Shown piece after piece: positions 8,239 through 27,813 of a stretch of 33,043 nt of DNA. Every line of letters starts with the position of its first letter. Position 1 is the stretch's first letter. The DNA is from a virus. The notes under the pieces were generated by a model. That model was not told the origin of the DNA, ran no database searches, and worked only from the letters and a program-made list of their open reading frames with translations. Position numbers and translations under genes: made by a program. The DNA lies in the IMG/VR virus record IMGVR_UViG_3300044621_000501, positions 1-33,043 of that record; one strand, written 5' to 3'.

Positions 8239-11200
8239 TATTCGATAATTTCGCTTCTTATGCCAGTATTCTTATATCTTACAAATTTAACACTTATTTT
8301 AGATTCCTGCTTAACAGGTATAAATAGGTGTCTTCTAGATGCCATTAATGCCAATCCTGAGCTAATAGAGGCATCGTGTTTTGTTCGGTTGTTAATGTCA
8401 AATCTTGCCCAGTCATTTAACGTTCTCGTAAAGTACATGTCACCCATACTATCTTTTTCTCGATAATTACCTTCTGCGTCGATTCCTACGTACTCTTCAA
8501 TGTAAGTGTTGATGCTATTGGCATGAGCGTGCTTTATATCTTCTGAAGAGTTAGGAATACCACCTAGCTCAAGCTCTGTCTTTGATAGTTTAGACGTATG
8601 CTTGTCAGGTCTGTTCATTGAGAATGGACGGTACCCTCTGTTCTTAAAGTGATACAATAGTCGCTGCTTGTTATTCTCTACAAGTATAGGCATTCCATAG
8701 AAAAAACAGGCCATCAATACATCCTCAAAGAATATCTCAGCAGTCTGAGGACGAGCAATATATTCCAAAAAGAAGTGATTGGTTGGCGCGTTCTCCATGT
8801 GAAAGTTGGTTATGCCGTGGAGTGCACCTGCAGACCCACCACCCCCAACTACACCTGATATGTCATAAGGGTCACAACCAAACACACCGATATCTTTATT
8901 ACCAGGGTGAAATTTGCCGTCCTTCTTAATTACGTTATTACGCATCTTAGCGTCAGGAATCCATGATACCACAAAACGCCCCTTTGGATCAGGAGTCCAA
9001 ATAACCTCGCTATCTTTCTCGCCGTTCTTCCAATGAAAGTAACCAGTTGTTAGGACGCGATCTTTAATCATCGCATCGTTGTAGTCAATCTGTTGGTATA
9101 TCTTCGTTAAGTTAAATAAAGATGACTTACTCTCATCTCTAAATGCATGCGATTCTGTTCTAGGGAACTGACGGTAGTATTCGTTGAGTGCGTCTGAGTC
9201 TGACTTCATTGCAGCTACCTCATTATTCCAATAGGTGATAACACCCATAGTAATCTGCTCACCATCGATACCCATCACAGGTTTCTTTGGATCATCAAAT
9301 ACTGGCCATCCATACTCGTCAATAAAGCCCTCCATGTTCCATTCCATTGGAATAAACAAAGAGTAAAGCCCCGACTTGGTCTGACCATTGGCAGATCGCT
9401 TGGTTGGATCACTATCGTAGAACAACTTCTTAAAGTTCTCACCACCTTTACTAAGCGCGTTTGATGTTGATCCCATCATACACTTACCAATGATACGGCT
9501 ACCAAGACGCAAACAAGTCTTAGTGACTCGCCAGTTATTTAAGATGTTCTCTGGCTTTTCCCACTTACCGCTATTCATACTGACGGTAAAGTCTCCTAGT
9601 ATTAATTTTCTTTCATTGTCATTATCTGCATCTACCTGTATGCCGATATACTCACCTTTATCTAAATACTCTACAGACACTTTATTTCGTCTGCCTCTAG
9701 TTTTAGGTACATAACCTTCAAATGATTTCTTTTTTGTGATTAAAGGTATAATTGATAAATCGCCTGATATGCTTATGTTGTATGATTTTGTATTGAAATT
9801 TGTATCCTTTTCTTTAACATTGCTACAACTAAGTCCGCATGATAGAGCTAAGAACCTTATTTGTTCTATAAGGTCTTTCCTGCTCATGCCTAATGATATG
9901 ATGTTTTTATTCTTGTCAGAATATCCATCTGTTTCTATTATACCTGCTAATAACTGAAGTCTAGTCTCTATAGACGACTGCATGTATTGCATTGGTATGT
10001 GCTTATTTTTATAAACACCTATTTTTTTTAATTCAGAATTAATGCCTTTAAACCTAAATTCAATGATTTTATTAGAAGTACTTTTTATTAGTTCAAATTG
10101 AATATTCATTACGGTAGAAAGCTTTCCTAAATAATCAAGAAGTTCAGGCTCTTCATATTTATTTACTAAAATAGTCATAGAATTACTCCTTCCATCACCA
10201 AGCCAAAGCCCTAATAGAAATGGAGGAATACCTTCAAATATATCTTGTGATTCAATACCAGTAGATGCAATTCTAGTTAGATGTTGCTTTCTAAATTTAG
10301 AGCTATTAATATACTCTTCTGGATTCATTATAACCTCACCTTTTTTATACTCGTTAAGCACAAGTCTATGGTTTTTTGTTACAACATAATCCTCTCCATA
10401 TGGCTGTTTGACTAAATATCTATCTGTTACTCCTTGCGTTCTTTTTACAACTGTTTTTATAATTCCACCATCTACTATTACATTATCTCCAATATTTATA
10501 TCCTTTATCTCTTTAAAGGTGAAATCAGACATTAATATTTTTGTGTTTGGTGCGTAGCACTCATCATGTACAAGCAGAAGTAGTTTCTCACCGTCATAGC
10601 TGTTGTCTGCTGTGTTTTTCCAGTCAATGGTAGTATCTAACCCATCTATATCATCATCGCGCTCCTCATCCATATTCTTACGAGTAATCTTACTCGCAGG
10701 GACACGGAAGGCCAACTCCGTCTTCGGGTTGTCCATACCGTCCTGGATCGGCTTGAAAAAGAATGGGTAATTTCTTACGATAGGTACAACCTTGTCGGTA
10801 AACATCTTCTTGGCATCAGATCCTGTTTTGGATAGAATACCAAGCCTGGCATCTCTGACAATTGTACCTGTGTTTGAAGTCTCTGCAGACGACATGAATG
10901 AGAATCCTGAACGACGGTTCTTTAGGTAGCACATACCAAACGCCCGACTGTCTGCTTTACACGCCTCCCAAAATATGTAGAATATTCGGTTGGACTCACG
11001 GAAGTCAGGAAGACCAATATCAATCTTGGTCCACTGAAGATACATGTAGTGCGTTCCGGTGATGTATGTCGGTGTTCCATTGTTAATGAACCAAAAGCCT
11101 TGCTCTCGTCTCTCAAATTCATCTTCAATCATATCCACATACTTAGACTTGAACGCGTTATCTCTTCGGTTCCAGTCAAATATTGACTTAATTTTCTGTA

Positions 11201-13235: not shown

Positions 13236-13697
13236 GTGATTTATTTGAAAGTGCATCCAGTCATAATTTTTTTCACGTCCAAGCGAAACAAAACCATGCT
13301 TGTAAAATATATCAATCATATCTTTATATTCAGGTCTTGCAAAGCGGGCTGTTCTGCTTGTTTCCTTTAATTTGTTTCTAGCCGGATCCAAATCAATAGC
13401 AATACCCCAAGCGTGAGTAGACCATGACGCCCCACCTCTCATTTTACGAAAGTTGAAACAACCGCCATAGAGATCTATACCAAGCTCAACAATGCGTTCA
13501 TAGCCGTAAACCTCTAAAAGTTCATTAAAAACAGCTAAAAAGTTATCTGCTACGTCCTTGTGGCAACGCATCTTTGTAACCTTTGTCTTTAAATCCCAAG
13601 CAATGCGCATCGGGTAGGGTAGGTTGATGGTTTTTAGATACGTTCCTTTTTCGTTTGGTTGGCCGTATTTTGCTATAATTTGTGTTGTACTCAACAT
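13233..13697 (-). CDS. M15-family D-Ala-D-Ala carboxypeptidase-type endolysin
   Basis: This 154-residue protein is predicted to be a zinc peptidase that cuts the peptide stems of cell-wall peptidoglycan at lysis. The family motif is plain: [13 protein letters not shown] gives H95 and D102, and DWMHFQI gives H149, the three zinc ligands of VanY/M15 enzymes. The length matches compact phage M15 endolysins. No signal peptide is seen, so release would need the holin. It lies one base after the holin-like gene and next to the spanin-like gene, forming a lysis cassette. Confidence 0.9.
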
Positions 13698-25368: not shown

Positions 25369-25398
25369 TTGACAATCGAAATACTTGTCTTATATTTG
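25355..25398 (+). promoter_or_regulatory. Main early rightward promoter with operator-like repeat
   Basis: TTG (start of TTGACA, 25369-25374), a 19-bp spacer and TATATTTG (25391-25398) form a near-ideal Bacteroidota promoter. TTGTCAA (25355-25361) and TTGACAA (25369-25375) are inverted around a 7-bp gap and cover the -33 box, so a dimeric regulator could act here. The transcript start is expected near 25405. Confidence 0.82.
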
Positions 25399-25404
25399 TA
25401 TCAA

Positions 25405-25910
25405 GCAAACGAGCTAATAACAATTGAAATAAGACACTATATATCGGTGACCACTGACCAATGCTTAGTCCTCTGCAATGTGACAAGGTGAAAGTAATAA
25501 GTAGGGTGAGGCGGTGGTAATAAATTCCAAGCTAGTGTCTTTATAATAATAGCAAGCCTTTAGACGTACAAGCGACGAGCCATGTTGCTAAAGGTGACCG
25601 AAACGATAAAGCCTTACTAAGCCCCTTTCGAGGACACGGCCGCGGTAAGTCGGTTTAAAGTAGGTCTGCTAAATTGACATATTGGTAAGACTATAAACTA
25701 ACTAGGTGAGTCACACTAGGCCGATGCGGTAAGTATAAAGACTCCGCTACGTCGGGGCGATTGATACACTACTCAGGTGGTCAACGTCAACCTATCAGGC
25801 CAAAAGGCGGTACCTGATAGATTAAAAGAGGGCATGCAGTTTAACGTGGCATGCAAACACTAGGTGCAGTTAGAATGACTAATTAATGAGAGCGATACTC
25901 ACTGCACCAC
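25405..25910 (+). ncRNA. Large structured RNA or long structured 5' leader (new class candidate)
   Basis: About 500 nt between the early promoter and the first gene hold no credible frame but many strong complementary segments. They are 25431-25439 with 25533-25541 (9 bp), 25450-25456 with 25512-25518, and 25557-25563 with 25588-25594 (7 bp). Further pairs are 25596-25600 with 25651-25655, 25613-25617 with 25645-25649, and 25702-25708 with 25712-25719 (one bulge). The last are 25721-25729 with 25744-25755 (internal loop), 25792-25799 with 25813-25820 (8 bp), 25832-25837 with 25849-25854, and 25863-25870 with 25901-25908 (8 bp). GGTAAG recurs three times. No terminator follows, so it may be a leader of the early operon. 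It shows no tmRNA or RNase P marks that I know. Confidence 0.62.
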
Positions 25911-25932
25911 AAACCAATAACACAAAAACAAC

Positions 25933-26043
25933 ATGGAAACTAGAGTAATCAGAATCGAAGGCCGTTACGAAATCATCGGTTTCTTCCAAGAAGGCGTGCT
26001 AATCAAGACACGCAAATTATTAATCCCTTTTAGATACAGATAA
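25933..26043 (+). CDS. First early gene, 36-residue basic peptide
   Basis: The peptide begins METRVIRIEGRYEIIGFFQE and ends in a basic tail. It starts 22 nt after the last helix of the structured leader. Its TAA overlaps the next ATG (TAATG). Small first genes of phage early operons often act on the host, but nothing in this sequence shows a function. Confidence 0.55.
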   Translation: METRVIRIEGRYEIIGFFQEGVLIKTRKLLIPFRYR

Positions 26044-27668: not shown

Positions 27669-27813
27669 CCAACTTTCAATCTTAGCAGGCTTACAGCCAG
27701 CCAATATGACGAAATCGTCTTCCAATATGACGAAAAACACCCCAAATATGACGAAAAAACGTCCTAATATGACGAAAAAAAAAGCTAAATGCTTGACTAT
27801 CAAGCATGAATGA
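27655..27813 (+). CDS. Possible peptide encoded across the iterons (52 residues)
   Basis: The peptide begins MYTIDQLSILAGLQPA and then repeats NMTK four times with 7-residue spacing, which is the direct translation of 21-bp-spaced ATGACGAAA iterons. It ends in a basic tail (KKKAKCLTIKHE). It has a plausible start overlapping the previous gene. It may be real, with DNA repeats dictating the protein repeats, or the frame may be only a by-product of the iterons. Confidence 0.35.
   Translation: MYTIDQLSILAGLQPANMTKSSSNMTKNTPNMTKKRPNMTKKKAKCLTIKHE

Follow-up and report, generated by a model that had tools for sequence, protein, structure and literature searches.

The window, which is the whole stretch of DNA analysed here, was a 33,043-nt virus record (IMG/VR IMGVR_UViG_3300044621_000501) that encoded a GroEL, a PD-(D/E)XK exonuclease, a DUF3127 single-strand-binding protein and a terminase. 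The best relatives of the terminase came from phages of Flavobacterium and Maribacter and from a phage of a spring-water sample, and we assigned the host of the virus to the phylum Bacteroidota. The structural genes ran leftward from ~24.5 kb, and the small early genes ran rightward from 25.93 kb. The divergent gap between them was occupied by a leader region located immediately 3' of a Bacteroidota-type promoter, which was the best promoter-like match of the region. A previous sequence-only reading had described positions 25405-25910 as a gene-free stretch behind the main early promoter. Both claims held: the only ORFs of the stretch, 40 and 42 aa long and close to its 5' end, were attributable to chance, and the promoter was present in form, its transcription being inferred. 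The first early gene downstream of the leader had no Pfam match. Elsewhere in the window, a 21-bp unit (AATATGACGAAAAA...) was present in three tandem copies at 27724-27788. Additionally, an intein carrying a Hint domain and a LAGLIDADG homing endonuclease domain interrupted the large terminase subunit at residues 296-624 (window 9573-10559, minus strand); relatives had no such insert, and residues 1-295 and 625 onward matched adjoining stretches there.

Comparison with related phages showed that positions 25404-25908 corresponded to a non-coding structured leader of ~505 nt, whose transcription was inferred. Its parts are listed in Table 1.

Table 1. Parts of the leader region and its flanks (window coordinates)
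Feature	Position	Strand	Details
Early promoter	25369-25398	+	TTGACA 25369-25374, TATATTTG 25391-25398; Bacteroidota type TAnnTTTG; kept upstream in relatives
5' terminal hairpin	25404-25415	+	AGC-AAACGA-GCU; transcription is inferred to start here or at an adjoining base
Domain D1, type A (optional)	25431-25541	+	closing 9-bp helix 25431-25439/25533-25541
Domain M2-M3	25551-25668	+	branched, AGC/GCU closing; CCUUUCGAGG hairpin at 25624-25633
Degenerate Bacteroidota rRNA boxA	25669-25684	+	CUAAAUUGACAUAUUG; 3 mismatches to consensus GUUCWUUGACAUAUUG
Domain M5, type A	25685-25755	+	type B in some relatives
Hairpins M6 (CACUACUCAGGUGG) and 25792/25813	25756-25821	+	covariation
Hairpin M7	25832-25854	+	covarying stem GCAUGC/GCAUGC around conserved AGUUUMACGUG
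3' three-way junction, P1	25863-25869/25902-25908	+	whole junction 25863-25908
3' three-way junction, P2	25870-25873/25879-25882	+	
3' three-way junction, P3	25887-25890/25898-25901	+	loop AGCGAUA
Gene-start element	25911-25935	+	3' of the junction; AAACCAAUAAC...AUG in the window, YUAACCAAUAAA...AUG in relatives
First early gene	25933-26043	+	36 aa, METRVIRIEGRYEIIGFFQEG...

Protein scans with the exonuclease and GroEL returned 121 loci. When the window's own locus was added, similarity to the leader was found in 68 loci representing 43 distinct versions, and further pattern scans enlarged the set to 50 leaders. The total length of the leader across this family was 242-691 nt, and wherever the genes could be placed, the RNA followed the promoter and preceded the first small early gene. 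Most relatives had a TAnnTTTG-like promoter element 6 nt ahead of GCAAACGAGC. The edges of the leader were constant. Namely, the 5' hairpin was present in nearly all members with a covarying stem (GGC/GCC, GGCC/GGCC), and the 3' end was formed by the three-way junction followed by CUAACCAAUAAA...AUG. The junction was compact, had strongly conserved loops and occurred in one copy per genome.

Two-sided changes were observed at 14 of the 15 pairs of the 3' junction, where 98.6% of the alignment cells were paired; this value dropped to 22-55% in slid controls. Such changes also affected 24 of 48 pairs in M5A-M7 (22 sequences), 16 of 48 in the alternative M5B-M7 (8 sequences) and 25 of 40 in M2-M3 (23 sequences). 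The pairing of D1 type A was only weakly tested, with few changes among 6 sequences. As these sequences had also served to derive the structures, the latter were favoured in the pair counts and slid controls. In a phylogeny-aware null, each alignment was re-evolved along its own tree, and against this null 10 structure pairs were significant in M5A, 12 in M2-M3, 8 in the junction and 11 in M5B. The top-scoring column pairs fell within the structure in 17 of 50 cases for M5A, 8 of 40 for M2-M3, 11 of 15 for the junction and 13 of 48 for M5B, with ~0.2 expected. These significance figures belonged to the less strict structure-set test, which might also be somewhat favoured by the same-sequence derivation. 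A stricter and structure-independent test over all column pairs left 2-3 significant pairs per domain, all of them with standard pairing. Thus, sequence comparison showed that the RNA was structured, with significant pairs in every domain set against the phylogeny-aware null.

The folding energy of the region was unremarkable (z -1.07, with 14 of 100 shuffles folding equally well), and minimum free energy was dropped as evidence of structure. It was the covariation among homologues that led us to take the observation as real, the folding energy being no better than chance. All five helices listed in the sequence-only reading were present, namely 25431-25439/25533-25541, CCTTTAG/CTAAAGG near 25557/25588, TATCAGG/CCTGATA at 25792/25813, GGTGCAG/CTGCACC at 25863-25869/25902-25908 and CCT-TTCG-AGG at 25624-25633. 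Covariation supported four of them; the long-range helix 25431/25533 showed one-sided changes only, in 6 similar sequences, and so remained without such support. That reading would have been refuted by variation without compensation, and the opposite was seen, with helices kept by compensating changes. It had also pointed out three GGTAAG copies. Two were within 25686-25735 in conserved parts of M5A, and the third (25644) was in a covarying stem whose sequence differed in relatives. Its proposal, either a new class of structured RNA or a long early-operon leader, was supported, although the transcription and the regulatory role were inferred. The mosaic build, the boxA and the hammerhead exchange described below were beyond what that reader could see.

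In covariance searches, including those suggested earlier for GOLLD, ROOL, tmRNA, RNase P and group I introns, no Rfam family reached its gathering score in any part of the window. The earlier failure to match GOLLD or ROOL was confirmed. Group II introns had no Rfam covariance match either. Within the leader region, hits with E up to 10 were limited to frnS (0.93) and CRISPR-DR8 (6.8), both on the minus strand and at chance level. ARAGORN detected no tRNA or tmRNA, and blastn with three different leaders found no match among named phages. We concluded that the RNA family was new, as it was absent from Rfam and undescribed in the open-licence literature searched; nor did these sources contain any structured leader RNA of the mosaic build described here.

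The comparison showed that the constant 5' hairpin and the usual 3' junction bracketed domains that were swapped, lost or gained. D1 was of type A, of type B or missing, whereas M2 and M5 each existed in two types (A and B for M5). An extra T-arm-like module, in which a GGUUCGAUUCC hairpin was enclosed by a covarying ACUUG/CAAGU helix, was present in one half of the family. In the most reduced arrangement noted (L120), only the 5' hairpin, one domain and the junction were left. Domain combinations cut across close relatives: one leader (L004) was 96% identical to the window over M5A-M7 and the junction and yet had no D1 and carried the other M2. Moreover, two phages of 65-68 kb had the unit boxA-M5A-M6-M7, placed in non-coding DNA that separated other genes and without a recognised promoter directly ahead of it. 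There the unit again began with boxA, 134 of 211 aligned columns were identical to the window, and the helices examined by eye were kept with different letters. Neither the GroEL nor the terminase of the present lineage was found in these two phages, so it was likely that the unit had moved between lineages. This suggested that phage non-coding RNAs are put together from exchangeable domains in a similar way to phage genes. The T-arm-like module of the relatives was also considered as a pistol ribozyme; Rfam gave no pistol match. The pistol ribozyme is known to have a similar end, GGUGCAA.

The 3' junction itself was replaced in some relatives. Namely, a type I hammerhead ribozyme took its place in L083/L084 and L085, a tRNA-like acceptor/T-arm minihelix in L364 and L367, and a plain hairpin in L105, and every replacement was located directly before the YUAACC gene-start element. 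The hammerheads had the CUGANGA, GAAA and NUH core with three stems, their cleavage being inferred, and the same gene-start element followed their cleavage site. In L364 (near 13504-13600) and L367, a minimal acceptor and T-arm hairpin ended the leader just before ACUAACC, and could possibly be a processing site for RNase Z or RNase P.

Type I hammerheads (stem I GGUUAA/UUAACC) also preceded many early genes further downstream in the operons of the relatives, for example in L083 (7475-7426, 7299-7243 and 6717-6666, minus strand), L071, L073, L085 and L394. For 45 of the 46 distinct main-form hammerheads, a start codon lay at most 40 nt from the cleavage site, and this distance was 22-24 nt in the copies inspected. 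In the loci of L083/L084 and L085, the other hammerheads scored below the Rfam gathering threshold. It has previously been reported that phage hammerheads flank single genes (PMC3088659). A type I hammerhead descriptor found none in the window, and a hammerhead variant was ruled out for the 3' junction since the core was absent. We also rejected the idea of a dispersed element, because a single junction copy per genome set it apart from dispersed ribozymes. The exchange between junction and hammerhead gave a direct lead to a possible new processing element in a 46-nt RNA.

Many leaders carried GTTCWTTGACATATTG, a boxA, just before M5. Of the first 43 relatives, 12 had an exact copy, and it was present at up to 3 mismatches in 33 of 48 leaders; the remaining 15, some of them ~430 nt long, had no recognisable boxA. 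In the window, the 3 mismatches were in the GTTC part, and sites at this level (<=3 mismatches) were expected about once per window by chance. When bacterial genomes were scanned with the phage-derived boxA, 50 of 81 exact sites (first 80 loci) were located in rRNA operons, either in the 16S-23S spacer (41 of the 50), before the 23S gene or in the 16S leader, and nearly all genome sites were from Bacteroidota. In viral contigs, 76 of 122 exact sites were followed on their own strand by a tRNA gene that started no more than 200 nt away, against a background of 7% and none on the opposite strand. Both scans were incomplete, so the counts were samples; intergenic counts that mixed genome and viral loci were not used. 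In the contigs L242-L361, GTTCWTTGACATATTG was commonly located ahead of tRNA genes, often by 8-15 nt. Based on its location in rRNA operons and before tRNA genes, we identified the motif as the boxA of Bacteroidota stable RNAs, in the absence of binding data. Thus, a Bacteroidota rRNA boxA was placed in early leaders and before tRNAs of phages, which predicts the use of Nus factors. A single literature search returned no dedicated study of Nus-factor use in Bacteroidota.

A near-exact boxA (GTTCTTTGACATATGG) was also present in the ~370-nt early leader of a distant named phage, ctfjg026 (MW202828.1). This leader had no other similarity by eye and no match to the 3' junction. The early operon of ctfjg026 (L123 749-7744) additionally contained a 16-bp palindrome, GTGTCGTTAACGACAC, in 12 copies, about half of them shortly before start codons. 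As some of the genome matches resembled promoters, we considered whether the boxA-like motif was a -33 promoter element inside the leader. It was unlikely in the window because, by eye, no TAnnTTTG followed at promoter spacing.

We propose that the leader is a boxA-assisted antitermination leader similar to those of rRNA operons, a reading we regard as the best explanation, at slightly less than even odds. In this model, a ~505-nt RNA would start at the main early promoter and form a chain of independent domains from the 5' hairpin to the three-way junction, most likely working as an rRNA-operon leader and a phage antitermination site combined. The nascent boxA of most members would recruit NusB-S10 of the host to RNA polymerase, and the loaded polymerase would cross hundreds of untranslated, Rho-sensitive bases into the early operon. 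The boxA complex might also help the leader to fold, and the adjoining domains M5-M7 might stabilise or tune it. The 3' module would mark the end of the leader, right ahead of the short unstructured stretch in which the first gene starts, and would let the leader and this gene act independently; a hammerhead would serve in the same place in a few relatives. It was by inference that we assumed a single transcript, the loading of NusB-S10 and antitermination, and that we assigned roles to the individual domains.

The antitermination reading was supported by covariation in every domain tested against the phylogeny-aware null and by the constant place of this single-copy RNA, behind the early promoter and ahead of the first early gene. 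It was also supported by the presence of boxA in the 33 leaders, in ctfjg026 and at the start of the other-lineage unit, and by the identity of the relatives' boxA consensus with the motif of rRNA operons and phage tRNA genes. In Escherichia coli, boxA with NusB/NusE and SuhB was shown to counter Rho on a reporter whose untranslated leader measured 567 nt, and the main role of the complex was to aid rRNA maturation (PMC4807359). The put RNA of phage HK022 acts at the starts of early operons and does not need to be tethered (PMC9378689), so that cleavage of the leader by a hammerhead would be compatible with antitermination. On the other hand, the reading rested on sequence comparison without experiment. 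The window boxA had 3 mismatches, a level expected about once per window by chance, and 15 of 48 leaders had no recognisable one. The elaborateness of the RNA went well beyond the needs of any known antitermination site, the unit of the two larger phages did not follow a recognised promoter, and intrinsic-terminator-like sites were not clearly enriched in the early region (10 on both strands versus 6.7 expected).

As a kind, the leader joined the large structured phage RNAs and the phage antitermination leaders. It resembled the HK022 put elements (putL and putR), which are structured, non-coding, untranslated RNAs at or soon after early phage promoters and suppress termination of early transcription (PMC9378689). 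Put-type RNAs are known to consist of two adjacent stem-loops contacting the zinc-binding domain of the RNA polymerase beta' subunit. The leader met the put criterion of being a structured untranslated RNA at the head of an early operon, the promoter and early timing being inferred from its sequence. However, put has ~70 nt, only two stem-loops and no need for a protein factor, whereas the present family was multidomain and mostly boxA-bearing; no comparable consensus of two adjacent stem-loops was recognised in the leaders. With the boxA antitermination system of rRNA operon leaders and spacers (NusB-S10, SuhB), it shared the boxA sequence and a long untranslated structured RNA, but it preceded protein genes and none of its domains matched rRNA in Rfam. 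Lambda nut likewise combines boxA with structured RNA where an early operon of a phage begins, although the present leader was far larger. GOLLD and ROOL are also elaborate phage-encoded RNAs of hundreds of nucleotides, and GOLLD has a conserved 3' part and a variable 5' part (PMC12286853). In contrast to them, the leader started at the early promoter and headed an operon rather than lying by tRNA islands. Finally, phage hammerheads replaced the 3' module in some relatives and preceded other early genes, but the window contained none.

The main rival to antitermination was a trans-acting non-coding RNA. In this case, the leader would be cut from the operon mRNA at the 3' module, by a hammerhead in some phages and by nucleases or an unrecognised activity in others. 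The resulting stable RNA would act as a scaffold, decoy or counter-defence, with domains exchanged under host selection, and boxA would merely ensure completion of a long untranslated RNA, as for rRNA and tRNA. Several observations agreed with this view: the mosaic exchange of compact domains, one unit of which was common to phages of another lineage; the replacement of the junction by a hammerhead, a tRNA-like minihelix or a hairpin, always just before the gene-start element; the marking of stable RNA genes by boxA in viral contigs; and a constant 5' hairpin that could protect the end. However, there was no terminator 3' of the leader, which preceded the early operon in this lineage, most members had no recognised known processing site, and no target was known. 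We would lean against this explanation, even though antitermination gave no better account of the domain exchange or of the 3' processing elements. Since boxA would be useful in either case, the data did not separate the two. A bolder version, in which an array of interchangeable trans-acting cassettes is freed by a junction of a new self-cleaving class, seemed highly improbable. The domains would act on the host (e.g., as decoys or in counter-defence) and pass between unrelated phages, and the junction ribozyme would serve where sister phages use the hammerhead.

Taken alone, the idea that the junction is a new self-cleaving ribozyme, leaving the first gene a ~23-nt 5' end as the hammerheads of sister phages do, was also improbable. 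It was favoured by the exchange with hammerheads at the same place in L083/L084 and L085, by the distance from YUAACC to the start codon, which equalled that following hammerhead cleavage (22-24 nt), and by the compact, conserved junction. Against it, the junction was found once per genome and only here, unlike hammerheads, could also be replaced by a plain hairpin or a tRNA-like minihelix, and had no match to known ribozyme families in Rfam. A regulatory 5' UTR, riboswitch-like or protein-binding, that affects only the translation or stability of the first small gene would agree with a leader ending directly at the start region of that gene. We considered it improbable: the first genes varied among relatives while the 3' module stayed, no riboswitch of Rfam matched, and whole domains came and went, unlike a single sensor. 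The unexceptional folding energy could suggest chance secondary structure in an ordinary intergenic gap. This possibility was refuted by the covariation and could practically be dismissed, as compensatory two-sided changes were far above the shuffled and slid controls and the phylogenetic null.

A further boxA-like sequence was noticed in Rfam itself. The consensus of the DUF2693 RNA family (RF02956), compared with L389 222-286, opened with GaUCUUUGACAUAcUU, and this family may therefore possibly be a boxA leader as well.
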